Shown here piece after piece: positions 1 through 31,496 of a DNA stretch of 33,017 bases (positions are counted from its first letter, which is position 1; every line of letters begins with the position of its first letter). A program made the position numbers and the translations under genes. The notes beneath the pieces are model-generated. The model was given only the letters and a program-made list of their open reading frames with translations. It made no database searches and was not told the origin of the DNA. Source of the stretch: an uncultured Gammaproteobacteria bacterium (GTDB taxonomy: Bacteria; Pseudomonadota; Gammaproteobacteria; Arenicellales; JAANXG01); contig CAMYKW010000057.1 in the NCBI GenBank assembly GCA_947259175.1, forward strand, positions 1-33,017, written 5' to 3'.

Positions 1-1958
1 CCACGGAGGAGATAGAGAAAGCCCTGGTCGAGATCGATTGGAATGACATCTTCAGCGACCGCGCCCCGCGCGAAAAATTGTCGACAAACCGGAAGTTCGA
101 CGACGCGTTCTTTCTGATTAATAAGGGGCTGGGCTTCAAGGACGGGAAATTGCAGCTGGGCAGGGGACTCATTCAAGGCCGCAAGATGTATCTGAAACTC
201 AAGGACCTGACCTTGCCGGTATCCGGCGTCACCGATTTCGATAAATTGAGCATCCCGTTCCGCGCGGTGGCCAGCGACATCGCCACCGGCGAGGCGGTGG
301 TGTTGGATTCAGGTGATCTTGCATCGGCGATACACGCCAGCATGTCTATTCCCGGATTCTTCGCGCCGGTTGAAATCGGCGAGCGGCTACTGGTGGATGG
401 CGGCGTGACCAACAACTTACCGATCGATGTGGTGAGACAAATGGGCGCGGACGTGTCGATTGTGGTGGATATCAGTACGCCGTTGGCGCCCAAAGAGGAG
501 CTCGGAACCGTGTTTTCCATCGTGCTGCAACTCACCGGCATCATGACGCGCGGCAATACCGAGGAGCAATTGGCCACTTTGAACGACGACGACTTGTTGA
601 TCGTTCCGGACCTTGGATCGATCACCACCGGAGATTTCACCAAGGCAGCGGAGGGCGTCGAGTTCGGGGTTGCGGCGGCGCAATCGAACCAGGCGGCGCT
701 CAAACGCCTGGCGATGAGCGAAGCGGAATTTAATAGCCACGTCGCGGCACGCGAGGCGCGCGCACGCGGGTTGCCGGTTATCGAATTCGTGCGCCTTAAT
801 AATAATTCCAGTGTCGCCGACGAGGTGATCCGCGCCCGCCTGCGAGTGCAGCCCGGTAAGCCCCTGGATATAGCGGAACTCGAGGAGGATCTGGCGGCGA
901 TCTACGGATTGGACGTATTCGAAAACGTGAGTTACACCGTCGTCGAAGAAAACGGCCGCAGCGGCGTGCAGGTATCGGTCACGGAACGGCCTTGGGGCCC
1001 CAACTACCTGCAATTTGGTTTGAAATTTTCCAGCGATTTCGCCGACCAGAACCGTCTTGCCCTGCGGTTTGGCATCCTGCGGGTACCTATCAACCGCCTC
1101 AACGGTGAGCTGCAGCTAATCGCCGAACTGGGAGACGAGCCCGTGTTCGTGGCGGATCTCTACCAACCCGTGGGCGTGGGTTCGCCGTATTTCGTGCGCC
1201 CGCGTCTGTTCTTCAGCAGACAGTTATTCAATACCTTTGAGGGCGACCAGGTCATCGCCCAGAACCGGGTCCGCGACGCCGGCGCCAGTTTCGCGTTGGG
1301 CCGCGAGTTCGGCACTTGGGGACAGTTCGAGCTCGGTATTGCCCGCTCCACCGGCGATGTGGATTTACGCATTGGCGTCGAGACCGTCCCGCAAGGGGAC
1401 GTTGACAGCGGTGAATTGTTTGCGCAACTGCGCTTCGATACCCTCGACGACGTCAATTTTCCCCGTTCCGGCGTGCTGGGAACGCTGGGCGTGCTCAGCT
1501 CGTCCACCTCGCTGGGAGCCGACGCCGATTTCGACCAGGCGACACTGGACGTGTACGGCGCCGCGTCATGGGGGAAGAACACGCTGCTGGCGGGCGCCCG
1601 TTATCTGACGACCTACGACGGCGAAACCCCTATCCAACGCAGGTTTCGTCTCGGCGGACTGTTTGACCTGCCGGGTTTCGTGGATGACTCACTGAGCGGC
1701 CAGAATGTCGTCCTGGCGCGGGTGGGATACATGCGCGCCTTCGGCCGCCTGGCCTCATTCCCGGCGTATTGGGGCGCAACCCTGCAACAGGGTAACGTGT
1801 TCGAAGACGACGAGGATATTGCTTTCGACGACACACTGACCGCAGGCAGCCTGTTTTTCGGATTGGATACCCTCCTGGGGCCCTTCTATGTCGGATACGG
1901 CATCGCCGAGGGAGGAAACGATAGCGTCTATTTCTTATTGGGCACCCAATTTCGCTAA
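1..1958 (+). CDS. Patatin-like phospholipase with POTRA and Omp85-type barrel (5' truncated)
   Basis: The reading frame is already open at the window edge (first full codon at base 3), so the N-terminus and the patatin Gly-x-Ser-x-Gly serine lie outside the window. The visible part begins in the patatin fold and includes the catalytic Asp in a LLVDGGVTNN motif (Asp codon at 396-398). A single POTRA-like domain follows at about 775-1000, then a C-terminal segment of alternating strands ending near 'LLGTQFR', as in 16-stranded Omp85/TpsB-like barrels. This order is that of PlpD-type (type Vd) patatin autotransporters and of RssA-like patatin/surface-antigen fusions. The expected role is a lipase or phospholipase A exported to or held at the outer membrane. 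It converges on the next gene with only 4 bases between the stop codons. The domain calls are firm; whether the passenger is secreted or stays periplasmic cannot be seen. Confidence 0.93.
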   Translation, partial: TEEIEKALVEIDWNDIFSDRAPREKLSTNRKFDDAFFLINKGLGFKDGKLQLGRGLIQGRKMYLKLKDLTLPVSGVTDFDKLSIPFRAVASDIATGEAVVLDSGDLASAIHASMSIPGFFAPVEIGERLLVDGGVTNNLPIDVVRQMGADVSIVVDISTPLAPKEELGTVFSIVLQLTGIMTRGNTEEQLATLNDDDLLIVPDLGSITTGDFTKAAEGVEFGVAAAQSNQAALKRLAMSEAEFNSHVAAREARARGLPVIEFVRLNNNSSVADEVIRARLRVQPGKPLDIAELEEDLAAIYGLDVFENVSYTVVEENGRSGVQVSVTERPWGPNYLQFGLKFSSDFADQNRLALRFGILRVPINRLNGELQLIAELGDEPVFVADLYQPVGVGSPYFVRPRLFFSRQLFNTFEGDQVIAQNRVRDAGASFALGREFGTWGQFELGIARSTGDVDLRIGVETVPQGDVDSGELFAQLRFDTLDDVNFPRSGVLGTLGVLSSSTSLGADADFDQATLDVYGAASWGKNTLLAGARYLTTYDGETPIQRRFRLGGLFDLPGFVDDSLSGQNVVLARVGYMRAFGRLASFPAYWGATLQQGNVFEDDEDIAFDDTLTAGSLFFGLDTLLGPFYVGYGIAEGGNDSVYFLLGTQFR

Positions 1959-12021: not shown

Positions 12022-12927
12022 TCACCGAACAGTACGCCGCCCCGCGTCTTCAAAAAATGCCAGGTATTCGGTCCAGTCCGTGATTGGACCGCGATGTGCA
12101 AAGATGACTACGCCGTTGCGGTCGATGACGTAGCTGGAGGGAAACACGCGGGCGATGTCCCGGTCCGGGATGTGAGTATGCACGGCGGTGGTGAGGCGGT
12201 GATCTTGCGCACCGCGGGAGCCTGAATCGTACAAAGGCAGGCTCTCCAGGCCCTGTTGTATGAGCCAATCCCGCGCCTGCTCGACGGGCTCTCGCATTTG
12301 TAGCAGTACCACCGCGACATCGGAAGGCAGCCGTTCACGTAGTATCCGGAAGAACCCGTGTAATGTAGGCAGTTCCCGCGCACACGGTGGACACCACGAG
12401 CCCCAGAAATGCAGCAGCACGATCTTCCCGCGCAGGCCCGCAACCGATAATCTGCGACCCTTGGCGTCGGTGAACGCGAGATCGGGGAAACGCTCGCCCG
12501 GCGCGGTGCCCTCCCTCGCCTTCGCCGCCTGTCCGGCGCTCGCATACGGTCCCCAGAGCCGCGGCCACTGCTGCCGGGAGAATGTAACTTGGTCATCGAC
12601 GGCATAGGGGACGCAACGTTGCCGGGTACGCTTGGCGCACTCCACCAGGGCTGCTCGTTCCGCCGCCGCGGCGCTTTTCTGCCCCGATGTCCACGCCCAT
12701 GCGCCCCCGGGCGCTATGACGAAAGCGCGGTGGCCTGGCGCATTGAGAAACAACTGATAGTAGCTGTCCCGCGCCGCATTGCCGACGTGAGGTATCGCAG
12801 CGGCGTCATACAAATCGTCCGCACTCATAACCGCAGGCGCGTTCCATAGCAAACCGAATAAGGCAAGCCCGCTGATCTTCCATGCAATACGCCGCCCCGC
12901 AAGTGTGGATCGTACGCGGATGGCCAT
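12022..12927 (-). CDS. TlpA/ResA-like thioredoxin-fold protein with extra N-terminal domain
   Basis: A 301-residue protein with a signal peptide or anchor (~residues 15-36). An N-terminal domain of about 90 residues contains 'HRAFVIAPGGAWAWTSG' and 'C-x7-C' plus 'PYAVDD', a pattern found in small proteobacterial exported domains of unknown role. The C-terminal half is a TlpA/ResA thioredoxin fold: 'LRGKIVLLHFWGSWCPPCARELP' with the redox CPPC at residues 179-182, and 'PSSYVIDRNGVVIFAHRG' with the cis-Pro region. It should act as a periplasmic thiol reductant or oxidant. A clear AGGAG lies five bases before the ATG. It is the last gene of the DUF302-octaheme cytochrome-cytochrome b unit (24 bases after cytochrome b), so it may serve haem attachment or substrate reduction there. 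Confidence 0.88.
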   Translation of the reverse strand: MAIRVRSTLAGRRIAWKISGLALFGLLWNAPAVMSADDLYDAAAIPHVGNAARDSYYQLFLNAPGHRAFVIAPGGAWAWTSGQKSAAAAERAALVECAKRTRQRCVPYAVDDQVTFSRQQWPRLWGPYASAGQAAKAREGTAPGERFPDLAFTDAKGRRLSVAGLRGKIVLLHFWGSWCPPCARELPTLHGFFRILRERLPSDVAVVLLQMREPVEQARDWLIQQGLESLPLYDSGSRGAQDHRLTTAVHTHIPDRDIARVFPSSYVIDRNGVVIFAHRGPITDWTEYLAFFEDAGRRTVR

Positions 12928-12951
12928 GAAGCTCCTGTCCTACGGTGCGCC

Positions 12952-13545
12952 TCAGTCGACCTCTTCCCAACCCGTGACCATCGCCTTGATGTGCGATGTC
13001 GGCGTATGACCGACGGTGGCGAGGTACACATGGGCGATAAAGAAGATCAACATCAGAAACGCGCCGATAACATGGCCAATGGCAATCCATTCGAGGTTGA
13101 GCCATGCCAGGCCCCAGCTGTCCCACGAGCTGTAGAACAAATACAGCAGGCCGGTTATCCAGATCAGCGGATTGATCACCAGTTTTACGAACAGGTACGC
13201 CAGCCGCTGCAATGGATTGTGCTTGGTCAGCGTGGACTGCCGGAACGGATGCGGGGCGTCGGTGAAGATTCCGCTCGCATAATATCGGAATACGGCCTGC
13301 GCCTTGTCCATCGTGGGAATGTATTGCTTCCACTCACCGGTCGTAAAGTGCCAGAAGATTGCGAATATCCACAGCACGATCAACACCCACGCCGCGGTGG
13401 TGTGATAGTCCACCGCCCGTTCGAATCCGAGCCAGGTATAACTGCCGTGGATCTCGAAGCCGGTCAACATCATGAACATGATCAATCCGGCCTGGGACCA
13501 GTGCCAGAAACGTTCGAACCGCTTAAAAATGTATATGCGTTGCAT
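12952..13545 (-). CDS. Membrane cytochrome b partner of the octaheme cytochrome
   Basis: A 197-residue integral membrane protein of the di-haem cytochrome b family (Ni,Fe-hydrogenase/formate dehydrogenase/thiosulfate reductase cytochrome b type). Four hydrophobic segments are visible. Candidate haem-ligating His lie in 'RFWHWSQAG', 'AVDYHTTAAWV', 'FAIFWHFT' and 'IGHVIGAFLMLIFFIAHVYLATVGH'. It would link the quinone pool to the periplasmic octaheme protein. Its ATG lies three bases after the octaheme gene stop, with a GAAGG ribosome-binding site inside the end of that gene, so the two are translationally coupled and probably form one complex. Direction of electron flow cannot be read from sequence. 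Confidence 0.92.
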   Translation of the reverse strand: MQRIYIFKRFERFWHWSQAGLIMFMMLTGFEIHGSYTWLGFERAVDYHTTAAWVLIVLWIFAIFWHFTTGEWKQYIPTMDKAQAVFRYYASGIFTDAPHPFRQSTLTKHNPLQRLAYLFVKLVINPLIWITGLLYLFYSSWDSWGLAWLNLEWIAIGHVIGAFLMLIFFIAHVYLATVGHTPTSHIKAMVTGWEEVD

Positions 13546-13548
13546 GAT

Positions 13549-15201
13549 CTATACCTTCTTTCTGCTGCTGACAAATATCCGAATCGCGCCGTGCACCAGC
13601 ACCGAGATCAATGCCAGTAAAGCGACGGAAAAACCCACGGTATCCATAAACACGATGCGGTCGCGCGCCGGAATGTAGACGCCGTCCACACCCGCCAGGC
13701 GACCTTTTTTTGTGTGGCACTGCTCACATTTGAGGGCGTCCTCTTTCGGCGCCACCATATGCGTGATCGGCCAACTCATCTCGGTTTCGACGAACCCCAT
13801 CGTGCCGCTGTATTCGGCGTCCACCGCTTTCATGCCGGCAGTGAGTGCTTTATCCCAGTCGTGATTTTTCCAAAACGCGGTGTCGTCATTCCCCGCGGTG
13901 TGAAGCACCGCCAGGGTTTTCAGTCCCTTGTCATACATTTGCTTGCCGCGAAATACACGCAACGGCCAGATGCGCGCATCGGGATCGTCGGGGCCGCCCA
14001 GGAACTCGTTGATTTTGACGACGCCGGACTCGTCGACGCGGTCTCCAAACAAAGTGTATTTCACTTTACCGTTGAACCATTGGTACTGGGGGATCACATA
14101 CCGATCGTAAGTGAAATGGCCCTTATTGCTGTCATAGTGAACCTTACCGATGCTGTTACGGGTCCTAATGCGCTTGCCCTGCTCATCCAATTTACCCGCC
14201 GTCGACCAGTCCCAACTCATCTTGGTGTGTCGCGGACCGCGGGCATAGGCCGGTATGTGGCAGGTCTGACAGGCGATCTTGCGCGTGTGATCGTTGAGCT
14301 TGGCATTGCCGCTATGGGGCCCGTTGCCGTGACACGCCTGACACGTGGCGGGATTGCGGTGCGTGTTGGCACCGCGCACCTGTACGCCGTTGGTATCGCT
14401 TGCGGTAGGCCCGTAGCGGCTGCCCGCGACTTCATGGCCGTCGGTAACGTGGCACTTCGCGCAGTTAAAATTCAACCCCTCGGCATCCATGTGCACATCG
14501 AGGTAACGCGCGGGCGTTTCCAGCGAGCTGTCCAGGTCACCGTGCTTCACGGCGTCGCCGCCGCCGCCGCGAAAATGGCACGCACCGCAGGTTTTGCGGC
14601 TGGTCTTGCCCACATGCTGCGCCACTTTCTTGAGGTCCGTAGGCGGCCGCAGGCGGCCCGATTTCGGCGGCCACTCCATGGTCTCGTAGTTGGGATGACC
14701 AGCCAGGCCCGGCAGCTTTTTATAGGCGCCGGTGGTGTCATGACATACCAGGCAGTCGACGTTTTCTTCCACGGTTAAATCAAACTCTCGATCCGCCCAA
14801 CCGTAACCGATGTGACACGCGGAGCAATGATCTTCATTGGATGCCACGGCGGTACAGAAATTGTTGATCACATGCTTTTTACCGAGCACCTGGCCGGTAT
14901 CCGGATTTCGATACTCCCAAGTCCAATGCTGGGTCTGGTGAATCTGCTTGGCGGCTTCGGTGTGGCAGCCAAGACACGCCCTGGTGACTTCGGGACCGTT
15001 CTTGAAGTCCGCCTGCAAGGCCTCGAACTTGGTGTGATCCGCGGTAGATGACGCCAGCGCCCGGGCCGCGTCTTGCTCGAGCGTGGGTTGAGTCGCCGCC
15101 GGCGCGGAATCTACCGCAGCAAAGCTAGATCCTGTTGCGGCTAGCGCCAGCGTCATGGTCGACGCGATAAGCGCAGCGCTGATGGTTTTGAGTAAGGTCA
15201 T
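13549..15201 (-). CDS. Octaheme c-type cytochrome, tetrathionate reductase (OTR) family
   Basis: A 550-residue exported multihaem protein. After the signal peptide (cleavage near residue 29) eight CXXCH haem-binding motifs occur at residues 76-80, 126-130, 150-154, 205-209, 247-251, 287-291, 311-315 and 492-496. The spacing and the landmark 'INNFC...HCSACHIGYGW' followed by 'NVDCLVCHDTTGAYKK' match the octaheme tetrathionate reductase family, whose Shewanella member has an unusual Lys-ligated active haem. A C-terminal membrane helix (~residues 521-543, then basic 'SSRKKV') anchors it to the inner membrane. The family reduces tetrathionate, and nitrite or hydroxylamine in vitro; the physiological substrate here is inferred. 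It is coupled to the cytochrome b gene and preceded by DUF302 after 60 bases. Confidence 0.94.
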   Translation of the reverse strand: MTLLKTISAALIASTMTLALAATGSSFAAVDSAPAATQPTLEQDAARALASSTADHTKFEALQADFKNGPEVTRACLGCHTEAAKQIHQTQHWTWEYRNPDTGQVLGKKHVINNFCTAVASNEDHCSACHIGYGWADREFDLTVEENVDCLVCHDTTGAYKKLPGLAGHPNYETMEWPPKSGRLRPPTDLKKVAQHVGKTSRKTCGACHFRGGGGDAVKHGDLDSSLETPARYLDVHMDAEGLNFNCAKCHVTDGHEVAGSRYGPTASDTNGVQVRGANTHRNPATCQACHGNGPHSGNAKLNDHTRKIACQTCHIPAYARGPRHTKMSWDWSTAGKLDEQGKRIRTRNSIGKVHYDSNKGHFTYDRYVIPQYQWFNGKVKYTLFGDRVDESGVVKINEFLGGPDDPDARIWPLRVFRGKQMYDKGLKTLAVLHTAGNDDTAFWKNHDWDKALTAGMKAVDAEYSGTMGFVETEMSWPITHMVAPKEDALKCEQCHTKKGRLAGVDGVYIPARDRIVFMDTVGFSVALLALISVLVHGAIRIFVSSRKKV

Positions 15202-15261
15202 GATGGTTCACCACAAGCTGGTCACTGGATTGACGTTGACGTGCTTTCTTAACCGGGCGCG

Positions 15262-15810
15262 TCAACAGCCGCTCAGCTCCTGTCCGCCCGCGCCCTTGCC
15301 TCCGCCGGGACGGGTCTTGATCAGGGGCGGCGCGGGTTTGTCCGCATCGAAGCTCAGAAAAGCCTTTTGGTCTTCAGCCACTTTATCCATGATGCTGCTC
15401 ACCTTTGAACCGAACATCTTGCCCATCAGCCCGGCATTCATGGTGCCGACATAGGTCTTTCCGTCATCTTTTTTGTAAACGGTGATGGTGCAGGGCATGA
15501 GAATCGACAGGATTCGGGTCGCGTCCTCCGCCAACAACGGTCCGGAGTACTTCGTGCTGCACGCCTCGACCAGCAACACCGGAGGCACGTTTTGCCCTGC
15601 GGCAGCCACCGACACCGACGGCGACCTGAGGCCGGACAGCTTCCAGCCATGATCGGACAGCGCCTGGATGTTGGCCTGGATACGGGCGGCGGTTTCTTCC
15701 ACGCCGAACGGACTTTCGTGTTCTGTCATCATCAGACCACCGGCGGTGTTCCAACCAACGATGGCCACCAGAGCGATACCCGAGAAAAAACCGGCGAAGA
15801 TCTTCAACAT
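15262..15810 (-). CDS. DUF302 family exported protein
   Basis: A protein of about 182 residues with an N-terminal hydrophobic signal or anchor ('IFAGFFSGIALVAIVGW') and a DUF302 domain. The DUF302 pattern is 'ESPFGVEETAARIQANIQALSDHGWKLSGL', 'VEACSTKYSGPLLAEDATRILSILMPCTITVYKKDDGKTYVGTMNAG'. A Gly-rich tail ends in Cys. The function of DUF302 is not settled; such proteins are frequent beside sulfur- and redox-metabolism genes. The ATG at 15810 is preferred to the ATG at 15828 because AGGAG lies eight bases before it. It is the first gene of the octaheme cytochrome unit and follows the FNR-box promoter region. The conserved Cys residues may bind a ligand or form a disulfide (inference). Confidence 0.88.
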   Translation of the reverse strand: MLKIFAGFFSGIALVAIVGWNTAGGLMMTEHESPFGVEETAARIQANIQALSDHGWKLSGLRSPSVSVAAAGQNVPPVLLVEACSTKYSGPLLAEDATRILSILMPCTITVYKKDDGKTYVGTMNAGLMGKMFGSKVSSIMDKVAEDQKAFLSFDADKPAPPLIKTRPGGGKGAGGQELSGC

Positions 15811-15845
15811 AGCGGCCACTCCTAGCATTGTGAGAAAGTAACTAT

Positions 15846-22478: not shown

Positions 22479-22781
22479 TCATGTGCCTTCCCGCCACGAA
22501 GCCAGGTATGCCTTCTGCGCGGCGCTCAATTGATCGACATCAATGCCCATCGCCGTCAGCTTGAGGTTGGCGACTTCCTGGTCCACCGCCGACGGCACTC
22601 CGTACACGGCATTCGCTAATTGGTCGTAATGGGCGGCCAGGTACGCGGCGCACAGCGCCTGGTTCGCAAAACTCATGTCTATCACCGCCGCCGGGTGGCC
22701 CTCCGCGGCAGCGAGATTGACCAATCTGCCCTCAGCCAACAAGCGGATTCGCCGCCCATCAGCCAGTTTATATTCGTCGAC
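22479..22781 (-). pseudogene. C-terminal remnant of S-adenosylhomocysteine hydrolase (ahcY)
   Basis: About 100 codons read the end of adenosylhomocysteinase: 'VDEYKLADGRRIRLLAEG', 'RLVNLAAAEGHPAAVIDMSF', 'VPSAVDQEVANLKLTAMGID' and the terminal 'YLASWREGT'. This is the compact archaeal/thermophile-type C-terminus. The catalytic and NAD-binding parts (over 300 residues) are absent. Upstream of about 22781 the frame reads unrelated Arg/His/Ser-rich sequence and runs into the divergent CheR-like gene. It is therefore a 5'-truncated gene left after a deletion or rearrangement; a functional copy is expected elsewhere. The frame remains open to 22916, but nothing before 22781 is homologous. Confidence 0.85.
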
Positions 22782-22839
22782 GTGAATTGCTCCGGCGGCA
22801 AGTGACGAACTCGGAGTAGATGACCGTGCGTGTTGATGA

Positions 22840-23670
22840 ATGAGGGACTGTGACTGCATCCGCCTGCTGCAGTGGGCACTTCCGCGCATGCGCATGCGGT
22901 GGCGCGGCTTCCGCAAGGTACGCGGTCAGGTCTGCAAGCGCATCCAGCGGCGCATGGGCGCGCTGTCGATTCAGGATGTAGACGACTACCGCGCCTATCT
23001 CGTACAACACGCGACCGAGTGGACGCTGTTGCGTGATCTGTGCCGGGTGACCATCTCCCGGTTCTGGCGGGATAAAGCGGCGTATTGCACGCTGCAGAAA
23101 GAAGTCCTGCCCACCCTGGCGCGGCAAGTGATTCAACGCGGCGATGACAGCTTGCATGTGTGGAGTGCCGGCTGCGCATGCGGCGAGGAGCCGTACTCGG
23201 TCGCACTGGCATGGCAACTGGCACTGCGTAACCGGTTTCCGTCGCTCACGTTGCAGGTGCTCGCCACCGATATTGATCGTGATGTCCTGGCGCGTGCCAA
23301 ACGCGCCTGCTACGGTCATGGCAGCCTCAAAGACCTGCCGACCGGCTGGCGCAACATGGCTTTTTCGCGGACCAATGACGCTTATTGTCTCCACCAGCGA
23401 TTCATCCTGCCGGTCACCTTCCGCCGGCACGATGTGCGCGACCCGCCGCCCGGGAAGCGGTTTGACCTGATAATCTGTCGCAACCTGGTGTTCACTTACT
23501 TTGACCACAAGCAGCAGCGTGCGGTGATCGGCCATTTCGTCAACGCGCTGGCGGGCGGCGGCGCGGTGATGCTCGGCACCCACGAACAACCACCCGCCGA
23601 TGACCGGCGGCTGACGGCTTGGCCGGCGTCACCGGGCTTCTTTGCGCTGCGGGGAACCCAGCGCGGGTAA
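22840..23670 (+). CDS. CheR-family SAM-dependent methyltransferase
   Basis: A 276-residue cytoplasmic protein. The N-terminal helical part ('LLQWALPRMRMRWRGFRKVRGQVCKRIQRRM', 'ITISRFWRD'-like) matches the CheR N-domain. The Rossmann domain has motif I 'VWSAGCACGEEPYSVAL', the adenine-ribose acidic motif 'VLATDIDRDVLARAK' and 'FDLIICRNLVFTYFD'. CheR enzymes methylate glutamates of chemoreceptors. No chemoreceptor, cheB or cheA is nearby and there is no C-terminal TPR, so the substrate is open; this looks like a stand-alone CheR-like branch. Earlier in-frame starts are cut off by stops, and no strong ribosome-binding site precedes the ATG. It begins only about 60 bases from the break point of the ahcY remnant, so its 5' region may have been altered. 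Confidence 0.87.
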   Translation: MRDCDCIRLLQWALPRMRMRWRGFRKVRGQVCKRIQRRMGALSIQDVDDYRAYLVQHATEWTLLRDLCRVTISRFWRDKAAYCTLQKEVLPTLARQVIQRGDDSLHVWSAGCACGEEPYSVALAWQLALRNRFPSLTLQVLATDIDRDVLARAKRACYGHGSLKDLPTGWRNMAFSRTNDAYCLHQRFILPVTFRRHDVRDPPPGKRFDLIICRNLVFTYFDHKQQRAVIGHFVNALAGGGAVMLGTHEQPPADDRRLTAWPASPGFFALRGTQRG

Positions 23671-23940: not shown

Positions 23941-25293
23941 ATGACTGTAATTCGATCCCTTAGCGTGCGTATCCTCTGGAGCCTGGCGTTATTGGCCAAT
24001 CTTGACGCGGTGAACGCACAGTCGATTCCACCGCAGGATGCCAATGAAATCGCGTCGGCGCGGTTCGTGGTGACGCTGGTCGAAAAGGACAAGCGTCACC
24101 CGTGGTTCGGCAAGGGTTTGGTTGGCCGTGGGCACGAAATCGCGTTCGCGGTGGACGGCGTGCCGGGCAAGGAGCTCACGCTGGTGCGGGGACAGACCTA
24201 TCAATTTGAAATACGCAGTGATCCGCTACACGATTTCTACTTGTCCACCAGCGCCGTCGGCCGGGGACGGGGCGTTCTCGCCGACGGCGTCGACGGCAAC
24301 TTTACCTTTGACGGAACGGTTACGTTTACCCCCACCGCACAAACGCCCGACGTGGTCTACTACCAATGTCAAAATCACACCTACATGGGTGGTCCGATCT
24401 TTATCGTCGATCGGGCGGGTCAAGCTCCGCAACGCGCCGCCTTGGATGACGCCGCCAGCGACGCGGTCAAGGAACCGGAAGTCGACCCCCAGACACTCGC
24501 CAAGAGCGTCAGAAGCAAGATCGCCTTCGCTAAATTGAGTGTACGCAGCTCCTCGGGCGCAAAACGCATAAAGACCAGCGATAATGCCGAGGCTAAAACG
24601 ATGATTGGTGACGCGGACCGCATGATCGTAAATGCGGAAACGGCGTTGCAGGCCGGCGACGCCGCGGGAGCCCAAACCTTAGTCGACGAAGCCATCCGCA
24701 CGTCCAGCGCCGCTTTCCAAATGGTGCCGGATAAAAAGGAGATCAAGAAACGGGCCAAGGCCGATTACCAGACACTCATGCGCCGCGTCGAGTCGTCGCT
24801 GGCGTCCTACCAGTCATACGACATCTCTAAATCCAAAAACGATGCGGCGGGTGTCCGCATCGACGCCGACACGCTGCGGCGGGATATGCTTGCGGCCCAA
24901 CGCCTGGCCGAGAAAGGAGACTACCCGGCCGCCAACCAGCTCCTGCGCGCGGCGCAAAAAAACCTGGACACCGCGGTCGCGAAGCTGTTGCATGCCCAGA
25001 CCCTCACCTTTACCCGCAGTTTTGCAACCCCCAAGGATGAATACCAGTACGAACGCAATCGCAACCAGGAATACGGCAGATTGCTGGCAACCGTGATCGA
25101 GAAATTGAACCCGTCCCAGGCCAAGATGAAGCTCATCAACGTGCTCAGCAAGCAAGGGGATGATCTGCTCGAGAAGGCCGATCGAAGCGCAACACAAGGC
25201 GATTTCAAGCGTGCAATAGAAACCGTACAGAATTCCACAACCCGTTATCAGAATGGGATAAAAATGGCCGGCGTCCGCTTATTCGGCCGCTAA
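23941..25293 (+). CDS. Exported cupredoxin-domain protein with long helical C-terminal region
   Basis: A 450-residue protein with a signal peptide ending at 'VNAQS' (residue ~27). Residues ~40-157 form a cupredoxin-like domain with a type-1 copper ligand set: His97 ('PLHDFYLS'), Cys143, His146 and Met149 ('YYQCQNHTYMGG'). Residues ~176-450 are almost wholly helical and Ala/Lys/Gln-rich and carry the signature 'DEYQYERNRNQEYGRLL'. I do not recognise this helical family. The next gene encodes a paralogue of the helical region without the cupredoxin. The protein is probably periplasmic; copper binding is strongly suggested, electron transfer or copper sensing is inference. GAG(AG) precedes the ATG. 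No other copper genes lie next to it except the YHS protein 3 kb away. Confidence 0.85.
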   Translation: MTVIRSLSVRILWSLALLANLDAVNAQSIPPQDANEIASARFVVTLVEKDKRHPWFGKGLVGRGHEIAFAVDGVPGKELTLVRGQTYQFEIRSDPLHDFYLSTSAVGRGRGVLADGVDGNFTFDGTVTFTPTAQTPDVVYYQCQNHTYMGGPIFIVDRAGQAPQRAALDDAASDAVKEPEVDPQTLAKSVRSKIAFAKLSVRSSSGAKRIKTSDNAEAKTMIGDADRMIVNAETALQAGDAAGAQTLVDEAIRTSSAAFQMVPDKKEIKKRAKADYQTLMRRVESSLASYQSYDISKSKNDAAGVRIDADTLRRDMLAAQRLAEKGDYPAANQLLRAAQKNLDTAVAKLLHAQTLTFTRSFATPKDEYQYERNRNQEYGRLLATVIEKLNPSQAKMKLINVLSKQGDDLLEKADRSATQGDFKRAIETVQNSTTRYQNGIKMAGVRLFGR

Positions 25294-25447
25294 ATCGGGT
25301 GTATTCCCAGCCGAGCTCGACCAATGCCGGTATCAGCGGTAGCCTTACCGCCAGGCACGTGCGATGGAATAAGTAGCGAATCCACGCGTCTTAATTCAGC
25401 AGTCCTTTTCGTTGGTACATGCGGGTCACACGCCAATCCTCAACATT

Positions 25448-26326
25448 ATGCTCGGCTTGACTACAAGGTTTTCGACCGGTGTCTTTTTAGTCGCCGCGGT
25501 TTCGTGTGTATGGAGCCAGGGGCTCGCGACTCCGGGCAAGGAACAGACCGCCGCACGTCTGAAATTTGTGGAGAAACTGATCGAGCATTCCTCCGCGGCC
25601 CGCCAGGTAAAGGCCAGCACCAACCCGGACGCGAAAGCACGCCACGCGCAAGCCCGCGTGCTGTATGCGAAAGCGGTTTCTGCTTACCACAGCGAAGATT
25701 ATACGAACGCCGCCGATCTACTGAACCAGGCATTGCGGACGATGTTTGCGGCGGTGCGTATGGCCGACAGGGATAAAGTCCTTGCCGAAAAGCGGGAACG
25801 CGACTTTCAGAACCGGCTGGGCAGCGTGAACGCCCTGACCGATGCCCACAACCGAGTCAGTGAAGAAAAGGGCGCCGGCGCCGCAAATTCCGAACTCAGG
25901 CAGTGGGTGGACCGCAAGGTGGCGCAGGCCCACCGCTTGCGCGAGGCGGGTAAACCGGTGGAGGGACGAAGCGCATTGGATGAGGCCTACGTGGCGATCA
26001 AAGTGGCGATCGAAGCGCTGCGCGGCGGTGACACCCTGGTTCGCGCTTTGAATTTTGCCACTAAACAGGAGGAGTACCAATACGAGGTAAATCGCAACGA
26101 CACCCACCGCATGCTCGTGGACGTGCTGTTGCGGGAAAAGATGGAAGGGAGCGACGCTATCAAAACGATGGTGCAGAGATTCATCGACAATGCCGCCGGA
26201 ACTCGCAACAAGGCCGAGGAGTTGGCCGGCAAGGGAGAATACGACGAAGCGGTGAAGACCATGGAGCAATCGACCAAAGACATCCTGCGGGCCATTCGCA
26301 GCGCCGGCATCTACATTCCCGGTTGA
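25448..26326 (+). CDS. Exported helical protein, paralogue of the preceding gene's C-terminal region
   Basis: A protein of about 292 residues with a hydrophobic leader ('FSTGVFLVAAVSCVWSQGLA') from the ATG at 25448; an ATG at 25412 is a weaker choice. The rest is helical, without membrane segments. It aligns along its whole length with residues ~190-450 of the upstream protein: 'VKASTNPDAKARHAQARVLY' against 'IKTSDNAEAKTMIGDADRMI', and 'EEYQYEVNRNDTHRMLV' against 'DEYQYERNRNQEYGRLL'. It lacks the cupredoxin domain. The gap to the upstream gene is 154 bases, so the two are probably co-transcribed and may form a heteromeric periplasmic assembly (inference). No family name is recognised; no Shine-Dalgarno sequence is evident. 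Confidence 0.8.
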   Translation: MLGLTTRFSTGVFLVAAVSCVWSQGLATPGKEQTAARLKFVEKLIEHSSAARQVKASTNPDAKARHAQARVLYAKAVSAYHSEDYTNAADLLNQALRTMFAAVRMADRDKVLAEKRERDFQNRLGSVNALTDAHNRVSEEKGAGAANSELRQWVDRKVAQAHRLREAGKPVEGRSALDEAYVAIKVAIEALRGGDTLVRALNFATKQEEYQYEVNRNDTHRMLVDVLLREKMEGSDAIKTMVQRFIDNAAGTRNKAEELAGKGEYDEAVKTMEQSTKDILRAIRSAGIYIPG

Positions 26327-26691: not shown

Positions 26692-27711
26692 TTAGCCCAT
26701 CGTTTGGTAGTAGAGGTTTTGCGGATGTTGGGCCTGAGCGAAAAAGAACCAGCGTTCGGCGAGTAACCCGATATATTGGGCGACAAAGGCGGCCGTTAAG
26801 ATTCCAGTCATTTTCACGGAAAGTCCCGCGACGATTAACAGTATTGGGACCGGGAAAACCAGTAACAGAAACAGCCACATCAGCCTTTGCAACCACGCCG
26901 GTGACGCGGAGTGAAAAAATTCGCGGGTATTGAATGAGCCGCCCATCAGGCCTTGGGAGCGTTGGGTAATGTGCTGGTGCTTGACGCCGGTCGCGGTTTG
27001 AAGCGTGGACTTCCGTCTTGAGCGCGTATTTCGTATAAGCGACGCGACGCGTGTTGCCAGCGCGACGAGGGTCACGACGACCGCCCACACGCCAAAAAAT
27101 AGCGTCATTTCCGCTGCATAGTGTTGCGCTAGAGCGGTGGCGAGAGTGAACCCGGAGGCGCTGCCCAACAAGGTGTAATTGAATACGGTCAGCGGTGTTG
27201 CCCACTCCTGTAGAAAGCGTATGCACGCATAGATCATTGCGGTGCACAGAAAAAGCGTAAGCACTGCAGCGGTGGCCACCCCCCCGATCCACAGTGTCCA
27301 GTAGCGCTGGACGAGCCACGGGGCAATGTCAGGCGACGATGCAACATAGTGCGCCGCCCCGTACAAAGCAACGAGGGCGACGACAATGGGCAGCACAATC
27401 ACTTCCCGCGACAGCCACGAGGTCTTCCACTGCGCCGCCGAACGCCACGCCCGCTCCGGACGCCCCAAATGAAAGAACGACGCCACCAGTCCGGCGATGA
27501 GCAGGCCCACTGACAGCACGCTGGCCGTTACATAGAACTCTCCGGAATCACGCAGGCCTGAATGTATACGCATGTACCATTCGCCGGCATACAACGCCAG
27601 GAACAAACCCTGTCCCACGCCGATCAGGGTGGTCAGAACAATCACTGAAAACGCAGGATGCACGGTGCTTAGTATTTGGACTCGAGTTGGTTGCGGTACG
27701 TTCGTAAACAA
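26692..27711 (-). CDS. soeC: Sulfite dehydrogenase membrane anchor SoeC (DmsC/NrfD type)
   Basis: A 339-residue polytopic protein of the DmsC anchor family with about eight to nine hydrophobic segments. The opening 'HPAFSVIVLTTLIGVGQGLFLALYAGE' and 'ASFFHLGRPERAWRSAAQWKTSWLSREV' are typical of DMSO reductase and SoeABC anchors. It would hold SoeAB on the cytoplasmic face of the inner membrane and exchange electrons with quinone; DmsC-type anchors carry no haem. A charged loop of ~45 residues after helix 6-7 ('RNTRSRRKSTLQTATGVKHQ') is prominent. The start codon appears to be TTG (27711), one base after the SoeB stop, implying translational coupling. The minus-strand order soeA-soeB-soeC matches known soe operons. 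Confidence 0.88.
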   Translation of the reverse strand: MFTNVPQPTRVQILSTVHPAFSVIVLTTLIGVGQGLFLALYAGEWYMRIHSGLRDSGEFYVTASVLSVGLLIAGLVASFFHLGRPERAWRSAAQWKTSWLSREVIVLPIVVALVALYGAAHYVASSPDIAPWLVQRYWTLWIGGVATAAVLTLFLCTAMIYACIRFLQEWATPLTVFNYTLLGSASGFTLATALAQHYAAEMTLFFGVWAVVVTLVALATRVASLIRNTRSRRKSTLQTATGVKHQHITQRSQGLMGGSFNTREFFHSASPAWLQRLMWLFLLLVFPVPILLIVAGLSVKMTGILTAAFVAQYIGLLAERWFFFAQAQHPQNLYYQTMG

Positions 27712-27712
27712 T

Positions 27713-28444
27713 TCACCAACTGGTCACGTCGTCGAGCGTCTGCTCGCGCACCGGGCCGACGGGTCGTTCACGTTCCTTCTTCAGCGGGTTGTCCGAGCGC
27801 ACCAATTCGTCCTCATGGATTCGGATACGGGTCTTACGCCGCGGCAGATAGTGGTTCGCCGGTTTCGTGCCCCATTCCGGCATGAGTGCGTAGCCGCCCT
27901 CCTCGCGGATGGCGACGGACACATTCGAATCCGGATCGTGAATATCTCCGAACAGGCGCGCACTGGTCGGGCAGGCCAGCACGCAGGCAGGTTTGCGCTC
28001 GCTTACCGGCAACGCCTCATCGTAGATGCGATCGATGCACAGCGTACATTTTTTCATCACCTTCTGATGGGTGTCGATCTCACGGACCCCATAGGGGCAA
28101 GCCCACGCACAATACTTGCAACCGATGCATTTGTCGTAATCCACCAGCACGATGCCGTCTTCGGGTCGCTTGTAGCTGGCACCGGTCGGGCATACGGGCA
28201 CGCAGGGCGGGTCCTCGCAGTGCAGACAACTCTTCGGGAAGTGCACGGTCTCGCAGTTGGGATACTCACCGACTTCGAAGGTCTGTACACGATTGAAGAA
28301 CGTGCCCGTCGGATCTTCCCCGTAAGGACGGTCGTCCGAGAGGTACCCTGCAACGCCGGACGTGTTCCATTCCTTGCAACTGGTCACGCAGGCGTGACAG
28401 CCCACACAAACGTTCAGATCGATCACCAACGCCAGTTGTGTCAT
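27713..28444 (-). CDS. soeB: Sulfite dehydrogenase iron-sulfur subunit SoeB
   Basis: A 243-residue cytoplasmic ferredoxin-type subunit of the DmsB/NrfC family. Four [4Fe-4S] cysteine groups are visible: 'CVGCHACVTSCKEWN', 'CLHCEDPPCVPVCPTGA', 'CIGCKYCAWACPYG' and 'CTLCIDRI...CVLACPTSA'. There is no Tat or Sec leader, in line with a complex facing the cytoplasm. It relays electrons from the molybdenum subunit to SoeC. The ATG lies six bases after the soeA stop. The family could also be polysulfide or DMSO reductase; the SoeB assignment rests on the partner sequences and gene order. Confidence 0.9.
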   Translation of the reverse strand: MTQLALVIDLNVCVGCHACVTSCKEWNTSGVAGYLSDDRPYGEDPTGTFFNRVQTFEVGEYPNCETVHFPKSCLHCEDPPCVPVCPTGASYKRPEDGIVLVDYDKCIGCKYCAWACPYGVREIDTHQKVMKKCTLCIDRIYDEALPVSERKPACVLACPTSARLFGDIHDPDSNVSVAIREEGGYALMPEWGTKPANHYLPRRKTRIRIHEDELVRSDNPLKKERERPVGPVREQTLDDVTSW

Positions 28445-28450
28445 GTGTGC

Positions 28451-31336
28451 TTACCGTTTTCCGCCGGCGAAAAAGGCCAACCACGATTTGGGCCTGGCTT
28501 TCATGCCCGGAAGCGGACGAACCGTTTTGAACTGCGGGTGCGTTTCGTGAGCTCCGGCTTCCGCCTTGGTCACCCGCACATGCACGTCGTACCAAGCGGC
28601 CTGTCCGGTCACGGGATCGGAATTGGATAAACGGTGACCGTCGGCGCCGGGCGGCAGTTCTTCGGATATCAGGTGGTTGAGCAAAAATCCCTTGCGCGAT
28701 TCGTTGGCGCCGGCCTCTAGGTTCCAGGCTCCGGACGCCTTGCCGATGGCGTTCCACGTCCACACCGTACCCGGCTCCACCGCCTCGCTGAACCGGCACA
28801 TGCAGCGCACCCGGCCCCACATGGATTCCACCCAAACCCAGTCACCGTCATCGAATCCACCTTGCCTCCCCACAGCCGGGCTCATGTAAAGATAATTATG
28901 CGCATGAATCTGTCGCAACCAGGCGTTCTGCGAATCCCAGGAATGGTACATCGCCATCGGACGCTGGGTGACGGCCTTGAGTGGATACATGCGCTTACCG
29001 GTCTGCTGGCTTTCCAGGGGATCAAAATAAAACGGTAGCGGATCGAAGTAGGTCGCTATGCGCTCGCGCAGGCGTTCCGGCGGCTGCCGGTACTCGGTTT
29101 TTCCCTGCGCCGCGAGCCGGAACTGCTGTAATACCTCTGAATACAGGTGTACGTTGATGGGTTCTGCATAGCGTATGAGCCGATGGCGCTGCGCCCACTC
29201 CAGGTAACCCTTGTTCCAGTTGCGCATGTATTGATACGACCTCGGCAACCGGTAGTGGTAGACGCAGTTGTTCTTTTCGTACATCTGCCATTGGTTGGGA
29301 TTGGGCTCGCCGCGCATGAACTTCTCGCCGCCTTTTCCACGCCACCCGGCAAGAAAGCCAATTCCCGATCCGGGCTCGGTTTCGTAATTGACGATGAAGT
29401 CCGGGTAGTCACGGTACTTGCGCGAACCTTCCTTAGTCACGAACGCCGGCAGCTTGAGGCGTGCACCCAGCTCGATGAGCACCTCCTGGAACGGCTTGCA
29501 CTCGCCGGTCGGCGGTACGACCGGAACGCGCACGGCGTCCACCGGCCCGTCGTATTCCGAGATCGGCCGGTCCAACATGGACATCACATCGTGGCGTTCG
29601 AGATAGGTCGTATCCGGCAGGACCAGATCGGCGAAGGCTACCATCTCCGACTGGAAAGCGTCGCATACGACGATAAACGGGATCTTGTACTCGCCGGTCT
29701 CGTCCCGGTCGTTCAGCATCTCGCGGACCCGCTGTGTGTTCATGGTCGAATTCCATGCCATGTTTGCCATAAAGATCATCAGCGTATCGATCCGGTACGG
29801 GTCTCCGCGCCAGGCATTGGTTATCACGTTATGCATCAGGCCGTGCACGGACAACGGATATTCCCAGGAGAACGCTTTGTCGATACGCACGGGCTCGCCG
29901 TCATCGTCCACGAACAGATCGTCGGGTTCCGCCGGCCAACCGAGTGGCATGCCTTCCAAAGGCATATTGGGACGCACGGTCTCGGGACCGGTGCCGGTCT
30001 TGGCGCAAGGGGGTATCGGGCGCGGAAAAGGCGCCTTATGGCGAAAGCCGCCCGGGCGATCGATGGTCCCTAACAAGGTCATCAACAACGACAGCGCGCG
30101 TATGCTGTGAAACCCGTTTGAGTGCGCCGCCAATCCACGCATGGCGTGGAACGCGACCGGATTGCCGGTGACTGTTTCGTGTTCGTTGTCCCACACATCG
30201 GTCCACGGGATGGGCAGTTCGATCTTCTGGTCTCGCGCCACGATGCCCATTTCATGGGCAATGCGGCGTATCGTGTCCGCCGGCACGCCGGTCACGTGCG
30301 CGGCCCACTCCGGGGTATAGTTTTTCACTCTCTCCACCAGAAGCTGAAACGCCGGCTTTACGGGGGTTCTATCGTCCAGCGCAAACTCGCCCATCAGCCG
30401 GGGATCGGCCCCCTTGCTATGGGTGACGACCGGGCGGTTGGTTATGCGGTCCCACCACAGCTTGTTCTGCGGATCGAAACACCCCTCTTCCTCGGGCACC
30501 TCGGTGCGCACGAACATGCCGAATTCGTTACCCTCCCGCAAGTTCACCAGCTCGGCGGCATTGGTGTACTGGATGAGAAACTCGCGATCGTAGAGGCCTT
30601 GCTTGATGAGTTCATTAATCAGGGCCAGCAACAGCGCGCCATCGGTGCCCGGCTTGATCGGTACCCACTCGTCCGCGATAGCGGAGTATCCGGTGCGCAC
30701 CGGATTGATGGAGATGAACCTGCCACCGTCACGTTTGAATTGGGAAATGGCGATCTTCAGCGGGTTGGAGTGATGGTCTTCGGCGGTACCGATCATGATG
30801 AACAATCTCGCCCGTTCGAGGTCGGGACCGCCGAACTCCCAGAACGAGCCGCCGATGCTGTAGATCATGCCTGCAGCCATGTTGACGGAACAAAATCCGC
30901 CGTGGGCGGCGTAGTTTGGTGTGCCGAATTGTTTGGCGAACATCCCCGTAAGCGCCTGCATCTGATCGCGGCCGGTGAACAACGCGAAACGCTTGGGGTC
31001 GGTGTCCCGGACACGATGCAAACGCTGTTCCAATATATCGAACGCCTGATCCCAGGAAATCGGTTCGAACTCGGCATCACCGCGCTCACTGTCCGGTCTG
31101 CGCAGCAGCGGCCGGGTCAGACGAGCGGGGGAGTATTGTTTCATGATGCCGGACGCACCCTTCGCGCAGATCACGCCCTTGTTCAACGGATGCTGCGGAT
31201 TGCCCTGAATGTACCGCACCTCACCGTCGCGCAAGGTCACGCGGATGCCGCAGCGGCAGGCACACATGTAGCAGGTGGTGTTCTTTACCTCGGTAATGCC
31301 CGTTTCCGATTGAGATTCTGGAATGTATGCGGTCAT
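28451..31336 (-). CDS. soeA: Molybdopterin oxidoreductase, sulfite dehydrogenase catalytic subunit SoeA
   Basis: A catalytic subunit of about 961 residues in the DMSO reductase superfamily. The N-terminal [4Fe-4S] motif C-x2-C-x3-C-x27-C is seen ('TTCYMCACRCGIRV' and 'GVICAKG'). The molybdenum-pterin domains follow with 'ALFTGRDQMQALTGMFAKQFGTPN' and a probable Mo-ligand Cys in 'HGGFCSVNMAAG'. The C-terminal cap has 'DGDWVWVESMWGRVR'. The absence of a Tat leader fits SoeA, which oxidises sulfite to sulfate in the cytoplasm of purple and other sulfur bacteria. The ATG at 31336 is chosen over 31381 because the extra codons coincide with a remnant of another gene; neither has a strong ribosome-binding site. 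It forms an operon with soeB and soeC. Polysulfide/thiosulfate reductase is the main alternative. Confidence 0.88.
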   Translation of the reverse strand: MTAYIPESQSETGITEVKNTTCYMCACRCGIRVTLRDGEVRYIQGNPQHPLNKGVICAKGASGIMKQYSPARLTRPLLRRPDSERGDAEFEPISWDQAFDILEQRLHRVRDTDPKRFALFTGRDQMQALTGMFAKQFGTPNYAAHGGFCSVNMAAGMIYSIGGSFWEFGGPDLERARLFIMIGTAEDHHSNPLKIAISQFKRDGGRFISINPVRTGYSAIADEWVPIKPGTDGALLLALINELIKQGLYDREFLIQYTNAAELVNLREGNEFGMFVRTEVPEEEGCFDPQNKLWWDRITNRPVVTHSKGADPRLMGEFALDDRTPVKPAFQLLVERVKNYTPEWAAHVTGVPADTIRRIAHEMGIVARDQKIELPIPWTDVWDNEHETVTGNPVAFHAMRGLAAHSNGFHSIRALSLLMTLLGTIDRPGGFRHKAPFPRPIPPCAKTGTGPETVRPNMPLEGMPLGWPAEPDDLFVDDDGEPVRIDKAFSWEYPLSVHGLMHNVITNAWRGDPYRIDTLMIFMANMAWNSTMNTQRVREMLNDRDETGEYKIPFIVVCDAFQSEMVAFADLVLPDTTYLERHDVMSMLDRPISEYDGPVDAVRVPVVPPTGECKPFQEVLIELGARLKLPAFVTKEGSRKYRDYPDFIVNYETEPGSGIGFLAGWRGKGGEKFMRGEPNPNQWQMYEKNNCVYHYRLPRSYQYMRNWNKGYLEWAQRHRLIRYAEPINVHLYSEVLQQFRLAAQGKTEYRQPPERLRERIATYFDPLPFYFDPLESQQTGKRMYPLKAVTQRPMAMYHSWDSQNAWLRQIHAHNYLYMSPAVGRQGGFDDGDWVWVESMWGRVRCMCRFSEAVEPGTVWTWNAIGKASGAWNLEAGANESRKGFLLNHLISEELPPGADGHRLSNSDPVTGQAAWYDVHVRVTKAEAGAHETHPQFKTVRPLPGMKARPKSWLAFFAGGKR

Positions 31337-31367
31337 CGACTTGCTAGCCGTATTGGGCGGCACCGAC

Positions 31368-31496
31368 CCGGGACAGGTCATTGACGGGATGTTTCAATCC
31401 CTGAAGGGTGGGTCCAATGGCCCCCGCCCGGCCGATGCGCTCGGCGAGCTTGTAGGCGATATTGCCGGATTCGATATTGGGGAACATCAGTGTGAA
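31368..31496 (-). pseudogene. C-terminal remnant of phosphate acetyltransferase (pta)
   Basis: About 43 codons read the end of the phosphate acetyl/butyryltransferase domain: 'LMFPNIESGNIAYKLAERIG' followed by 'AIGPTLQGLKHPVNDLSR', matching Pta C-termini ('FPDLxxGNIAYKLxQR', 'AIGPILQGLxKPVNDLSRG'). After 'NDLSR' the frame diverges into a few unrelated codons and stops at 31344, where Pta normally continues about 20 residues. Before 31496 the frame is unrelated. No other part of pta is present. It abuts the soeA start on the same strand, so it marks a recombination junction. Confidence 0.8.

Follow-up and report, generated by a model that had tools for sequence, protein, structure and literature searches.

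A cupredoxin-helical fusion protein and its helical paralogue in an uncultured gammaproteobacterium as probable detached relatives of UetF

The closest described counterpart of the gene pair considered here is the Uet (undecaheme electron transfer) system of Tenderiales, a proposed route for electrons across the cell envelope, for which the portion of PMC10734462 available to us gives UetA as a tetraheme cytochrome, UetB as a PPIase, UetC as a porin, UetD, UetE and UetG as trihemes, UetH and UetI as NHL proteins and UetJ as an undecaheme, with UetF named just in a list of search references; the cluster name uetABCDEFGHIJ is taken from an excerpt of PMC12575090. For Candidatus Tenderia electrophaga, the accessible part of PMC5371394 describes Tel_16525, whose number falls between those of the triheme genes Tel_16520 and Tel_16530, as a tetratricopeptide-repeat protein that is apparently cotranscribed with the triheme genes and may help align the cytochromes in the bridge. 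The same part of that source reports a different cupredoxin complex in Tenderia, and Sideroxydans, according to excerpts, has other cupredoxins. In the sections of the Uet and Tenderia literature that were searched, we found no mention of a cupredoxin in UetF; the 2022 naming paper lies outside this set and may describe one.

We analyzed two adjacent genes, here called P1 and P2, in a 33,017-nucleotide stretch of DNA from an uncultured gammaproteobacterium (the window). Their features are as follows.

23941..25293, + strand: P1, exported cupredoxin-helical fusion of the UetF1 type, 450 aa (reading frame, model, tree)
23941..24021, + strand: signal-peptide-like stretch of P1, residues 1-27, cleavage point approximate (hydropathy)
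24058..24420, + strand: cupredoxin domain of P1, residues 40-160 (predicted model, structural matches, conservation)
24229..24231, + strand: His97 of P1, predicted copper ligand (invariant in 23/23 aligned fusions)
24367..24387, + strand: Cys143-x2-His146-x2-Met149 of P1, predicted copper ligands (fusion alignment)
24421..24498, + strand: linker between the cupredoxin and helical domains of P1, residues 161-186 (pLDDT <50 at residues 169-180)
24499..25290, + strand: helical domain of P1, residues 187-450, F1 side of the family tree (model, tree)
25039..25065, + strand: motif EYQYERNRN of P1, residues 367-375 (sequence)
25412..26326, + strand: P2, exported helical protein without a cupredoxin, UetF2 type (model, tree)
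26072..26098, + strand: motif EYQYEVNRN of P2, residues 221-229 counted from TTG 25412 (sequence)

The two genes are on the same strand, and P2, which ends at 26326, starts either at TTG 25412 (304 aa) or, more likely, at ATG 25448 (292 aa). An earlier sequence-only reading of this DNA had taken the second half of P1 and nearly all of P2 for exported paralogues, with a type-1 copper site in P1. This description holds: residues 192-449 of P1 align with P2 at 27% identity (70/260 columns, E 2e-21), the motif EYQYExNRN is present in both proteins, both N termini are hydrophobic and signal-like by hydropathy, and the ligands are His97, Cys143, His146 and Met149 as proposed. Cys143 is the sole cysteine of P1, and the type-1 ligand set of two histidines, one cysteine and one methionine, spaced as required, lies on a domain predicted to be beta that matches the Greek-key barrels of solved cupredoxins. 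The C-x2-H-x2-M spacing is that of amicyanin. A copper site in P2 was rejected, its sole cysteine falling within the signal-like stretch.

The AlphaFold model of P1 comprises a beta domain followed by helices (pLDDT 81.6), with a pTM of 0.38, so that the relative placement of the two domains is not fixed by the model, and P2 is predicted to be all-helical (pLDDT 90.9, pTM 0.49). Solved cupredoxins that the beta domain matches include PDB 2dv6 (Z 10.0, 98 residues aligned, 2.8 Å) and the rusticyanin variant 2cal (Z 8.7, 101 residues aligned, 3.0 Å). The Pfam profile PF25489, named after the plant protein At5g54830, scores on the cupredoxin in 19 of the 23 fusions described below at E 0.01 (best 1.9e-8). 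For the helical domain, the comparison with solved structures yields a best Z of 9.4, but at an rmsd of 9.6-12 Å, and Foldseek returns no match with E <0.001. A search of PDB sequences retrieves mainly designed helical proteins, the top one (E 1.1e-7) being a designed chlorophyll protein, which we take as an effect of helix make-up.

In agreement with the initial view of the helical domain as an unrecognised family, neither P1 nor P2 scores above the cut-off of any Pfam or NCBIfam family; NCBIfam gives one weak PTS match to P1, far below cut-off, and none to P2. Assignment to the tetratricopeptide repeats was considered and rejected, given that the best scores are 22.4 bits for P2 (TPR_2, cut-off 27) and 10.9 bits for P1 (TPR_14, cut-off 23.5). 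At E 0.01, TPR_2 matches 6 of 43 and 1 of 23 family members, and the label of tetratricopeptide-repeat protein attached to the Candidatus Tenderia UetF in the accessible literature fits these weak scores. A different candidate is EfeO, which shares with P1 the general layout of a periplasmic protein with a cupredoxin ahead of an all-helical domain and appears at rank 23 of the Foldseek list, so that P1 might be an EfeO-like iron or copper binder serving metal storage or import only. The match is weak (E 0.014, TM 0.16-0.19), the M75 peptidase family of Pfam does not match even at E 1, the HxxE motif is absent from both P1 and P2, and the gene neighbors differ, the relatives of P1 and P2 being located among cytochrome genes; we consider this assignment very improbable.

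A search of 369 genomes of the class with a profile of the helical domain (A1, in which some frames include residues read upstream of the true start) produced matches in 45 genomes, of which 42 are strong and three weak (G196, G378 and G403; E 1e-4 to 1e-3), and revealed a recurring cytochrome cluster around the matches. In the class loci, the recurring gene order is tetraheme, PPIase, barrel, triheme, triheme, helical protein, triheme, NHL, NHL, 11-heme protein, ResB and cytochrome c assembly protein, with heme numbers given as CxxCH counts. In one locus (L110), Pfam and NCBIfam identify the PPIase, three c7 trihemes, two NHL proteins, doubled-CXXCH proteins with 4 and 11 hemes, ResB and the cytochrome c assembly protein, and no family is matched by the barrel protein. 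This order is the published uet order, which places the helical family at UetF: like the UetF of uet clusters, the relatives of P1 and P2 are encoded between triheme genes. Thus, the pair, for which the sequence-only reading could name no known system, can be placed by gene order, rather than by the sequence of the Tenderia protein, as the counterpart of UetF, which would be the helical component encoded between the c7 trihemes (UetD and UetE before, UetG after) of a porin-multiheme conduit.

Among the 40 class loci that we fetched, a subset of the A1 matches, 22 belong to a barrel-containing cluster and one to a cut cluster; in 6, the helical gene directly follows two trihemes with no barrel within the fetched stretch. 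The remaining 11 are located away from trihemes, which counts against the interpretation that we favor below. Some of these clusters are cut by the ends of contigs or stretches (e.g., L092). In 5 of the 22 barrel clusters, there are two tandem helical genes, both without a cupredoxin.

Fusions of the P1 type were picked by the pattern C.NH..M, the N-terminal extensions of helical frames also being read, so that the invariance of the cysteine, histidine and methionine among them is partly by construction. When 105 helical frames were compared with a cupredoxin profile built from these fusions, the 23 fusions matched and none of the frames without the pattern did. All 17 fusions outside the genus of the window are in barrel-bearing clusters (among the 22) and come from 11 families as counted by family code; in each of these 17 fetched loci the fusion is the lone helical gene at the F place, whereas cupredoxin-less helical genes occur there elsewhere singly or in tandem. 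These proteins resemble amicyanin, plastocyanin and rusticyanin in the cupredoxin fold and the His/Cys/His/Met ligands, and differ from such small blue-copper proteins by the attached helical domain and, in 13 of the 17 fusions outside the genus, by a lipobox-like pattern ahead of the cupredoxin. An in-cluster fusion used as the query against a plasmid collection gave no match.

A search across the phylum (profile A4, E 1e-8) matched 21 of 299 genomes, namely that of the window, one more in the class and 19 outside the class. One locus was fetched from each of the 20 genomes besides the window's own, further matches there being set aside. All 20 loci belong to the cytochrome cluster described above; 14 of them have two helical genes, 5 have one and 1 has three (in L152, the sequence ends at the helical genes). 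The order varies slightly, one NHL gene following the trihemes more often than two, with one or two extra trihemes. Neither the cupredoxin pattern nor a cupredoxin-profile match was found in these 20 loci. In the locus with three helical genes at the F place, the middle one (L146:9191-10234, - strand; genome G537) has an N terminus that looks PDZ-like by eye, i.e., another domain joined to this family. Frames of 469-541 aa in four genomes (G447:C119, G470:C14, G466:C208 and G482:C43) contain two or three consecutive matches to the C-terminal half of the helical profile, so the helical half-domain can occur as a repeat.

The association with trihemes extends to whole genomes. UetE-type trihemes (profile A5, E 1e-20) are found in at least 47 of the 369 class genomes, including all 42 with strong helical matches and at least 5 of the other 327 (G135, G249, G270, G308 and G370), the three weak matches being scored as negatives. 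Given that 23 of the 26 triheme rows of A5 were drawn from helical loci, that the candidates scored in each genome were limited in number and that kinship is ignored, the Fisher figure of 4e-50 is to be read as a strong association only.

To place P1 and P2 within the family, we rely on two midpoint-rooted trees, one of 66 rows and one of 100 rows after two long F1 rows (L097_G212_8855 and L096_G422_3908) had been dropped. In the smaller tree, a branch (99/99) sets apart all 23 fusions and 6 cupredoxin-less helical proteins; P2 belongs to another group, of 27 rows (100/98), that also contains the second helical gene of each of the five in-class tandems. In the larger tree, a branch with support of 95/88 separates the 23 fusions, 15 F1 proteins and 6 others from the F2 side, which holds all 20 second-position proteins, 6 singles, P2 and the rest, including 3 of the 18 F1 rows, all long-branched. 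The helical domain of P1 clades with the in-cluster fusions (99/99 and 99/91 in the two trees, respectively), and P2 with the in-cluster F2 proteins (100/98 and 100/99). With P1 on the F1 side and P2 on the F2 side, the succession of P1 and P2 mirrors the order F1-F2 within uet clusters. The suggestion that the pair arose by duplication with gain or loss of the copper domain is borne out as regards paralogy; a recent local event is ruled out by the separate clades and by the AU test, in which a single P1+P2 clade of the genus is rejected (lnL 74.6 lower, AU p 4.65e-12), and the split is old. The cupredoxin label requires 3 changes on the 66-row tree and 4 on the 100-row tree, which fits a single gain on the F1 side with few losses, a scenario that the trees accommodate rather than prove.

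Within the genus, P1 has orthologs in all 5 other genomes (60-74% identity), and P2 adjoins it in 4 of them, the exception being G004, where P1 has no P2 beside it. Both proteins are kept under purifying selection, with dN/dS of 0.09-0.16 for pairs that include the window at dS >1, near saturation. Within P1, the cupredoxin evolves most slowly (pN 0.075-0.117 vs 0.157-0.29 for the helical domain) and the signal-like stretch is the part under the least constraint. Among the loci fetched, the tandem of a fusion and a helical protein is confined to this genus (5 of 6 genomes), so that the exact pair is not conserved beyond it, whereas the F1-F2 tandem is. A search of 60 relatives with P1 matched 7 genomes, namely the six of the genus (that of the window included) and G006 of the same family, which has helical proteins without a cupredoxin; such patchiness close to home counts against the favored interpretation. 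A third helical paralog, 49% identical to P2, is encoded elsewhere in the genome of the window (G000:C9:86583-87476).

Unlike the UetF of uet clusters, P1, which carries a cupredoxin, and P2 are located outside such a cluster: their neighbors in the window are CheR, ChaN and Soe/Dms-type genes, with no trihemes, and this again counts against our preferred explanation. Because trihemes are lacking beside P1 and P2 but are present beside their homologs, the two proteins are relatives of UetF rather than in-cluster UetF. The ChaN-like heme-binding gene (PF04187; 21218-22472, + strand) is split over two overlapping frames; it is one long frame in 4 of 5 genus relatives, and the frameshift in the window is either real or derived from the assembly. 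At 22482-22916 (- strand), what remains of an S-adenosylhomocysteine hydrolase-like protein is 145 aa from the C terminus, compared with 421-441 aa for the counterparts in G001, G003 and G005, so that the stretch beside CheR seems to have been lost in the window. Further away, a patatin phospholipase fused to POTRA and Omp85 domains is encoded at 78-1955 (+ strand), an architecture that we take to be that of type Vd autotransporters.

Two other redox loci in the window deserve consideration as possible destinations of P1 and P2. The genes at 26692-31381 (- strand) encode a molybdopterin oxidoreductase, an FeS protein and a DmsC-type membrane subunit, which we assume to be possibly a Soe-type sulfite dehydrogenase. 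The run at 12025-15828 (- strand) has the appearance of an octaheme reductase operon: its products are an eight-heme cytochrome (PF11783; gene at 13552-15201), a cytochrome b561, a redoxin and a DUF302 protein. Recruitment of P1 and P2 within the genus to one of these pathways, e.g., the Soe/Dms-type molybdoenzyme or the octaheme cytochrome, would agree with their presence on the same contig, with the failure to find the uet porin in the genome of the window and with the gene run upstream of P1, which is common to G004, where the octaheme gene is 7 kb from P1, and partly to G001, whose contig ends before the octaheme position. A conserved link to the Soe/Dms-type genes is, however, rejected, as these genes do not follow P1 and P2 in the stretches of 4 of the 5 other genus genomes (G002, G003, G004 and G005), the contig of the fifth (G001) ending 0.8 kb past P2, and the relatives in other families sit in uet clusters. 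On balance, we regard such recruitment as unlikely.

In the genome of the window (97.7% complete, 121 contigs), UetC was not found, nor was a canonical UetJ: the undecaheme query gives only remote relatives, among them an 11-heme protein of 597 residues on contig C59. UetD and UetE are adjacent on contig C7 (L117:8611-9690). On the same contig, 4 kb from UetD/UetE, an open frame with 30 CxxCH runs off the contig end (L117:1-4635, G000:C7), and a frame with 27 hemes is similarly located in G004. The 11-heme protein belongs to a second cytochrome cluster (L119, G000:C59) with fused triheme units (9 hemes) and two NHL genes; clusters like this one are present in G002, G004 and G007. As for the uet cluster itself, G001, G002 and G005 retain it; at its F place, G001 and G005 have only a short helical remnant, and G002 has a short gap in which nothing matches. 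G004 has kept UetD and UetE, and its UetC is a broken remnant. In G003 (86% complete), P1 and P2 are present, and UetC, UetJ and separate trihemes were not found, which is the weakest point of the model that partners P1 and P2 with trihemes. Taken together, the genomes of the genus look like a progression: uetF seems to have moved out of the cluster or to have been reduced within it, and the conduit to have disappeared from some species, P1 and P2 remaining under purifying selection. With the porin and the canonical undecaheme not found and UetD and UetE kept elsewhere, P1 and P2 in the genome of the window probably serve a D-E-F module confined to the periplasm and not a complete conduit through the outer membrane.

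We propose, with a probability of about 0.62, that P1 and P2 are detached UetF1 and UetF2 proteins, partners of periplasmic trihemes, to which P1 adds a tethered copper relay. The most likely function of the helical domain is to dock or align the triheme cytochromes of the periplasm, a role suggested by the location of its relatives between triheme genes and by the barrel-less triheme-triheme-helical arrangement noted above. The type-1 copper domain, added ahead of the helical domain on the F1 side, would act as a tethered one-electron relay, the cupredoxin on its linker passing single electrons between the trihemes and other periplasmic carriers, and P2 would be the metal-free docking partner. 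The potential of a blue-copper site is higher than that of most c7 trihemes, which would suit electron uptake. Among the roles initially suggested for the pair, copper-linked electron transfer or scaffolding finds support as a broad role.

An alternative is that the UetF family consists of assembly factors, i.e., helical holdases for heme attachment or folding of the trihemes that work with the PPIase and biogenesis proteins, the cupredoxin delivering or sensing copper or redox state. The cluster does encode a PPIase, ResB and a cytochrome c assembly protein, P2 has no redox group and could hence have a structural or chaperone role, and weak matches to YfdX (PF10938) are seen at E 0.01 in 3 of 43 and 3 of 23 family members. 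The YfdX scores of P1 (16.3 bits) and P2 (11.5 bits) are nevertheless below the curated cut-off of 26.6, and membership in that family was rejected. The predicted ligand set of P1 is that of a blue-copper electron-transfer site and not of a copper chaperone, which also argues against assembly, and we view this alternative as rather unlikely.

By homology, P1 and P2 are a detached variant of a type of system already known, with a copper part that goes unmentioned in the portions of the literature that were searched. In the accounts accessible to us, electron uptake via porin-cytochrome conduits is described with reference to hemes. A tentative broader reading, which we consider less likely than not, is that a blue-copper domain is a regular, conserved part of porin-multiheme uptake across many families of Gammaproteobacteria, where a copper relay attached to a helical docking protein would bridge the periplasmic trihemes, and that in the genus of the window it became a free-standing module, in some species after loss of the conduit. 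The copper domain, which occupies a constant position in the uet clusters of 11 families, is a concrete candidate for the step between the outer-membrane conduit and the respiratory chain, and UetF, which in the literature available to us bore only the TPR label, gains a testable role. The detached pair, in a genus some species of which are without the porin, is a natural test of UetF function apart from the conduit.
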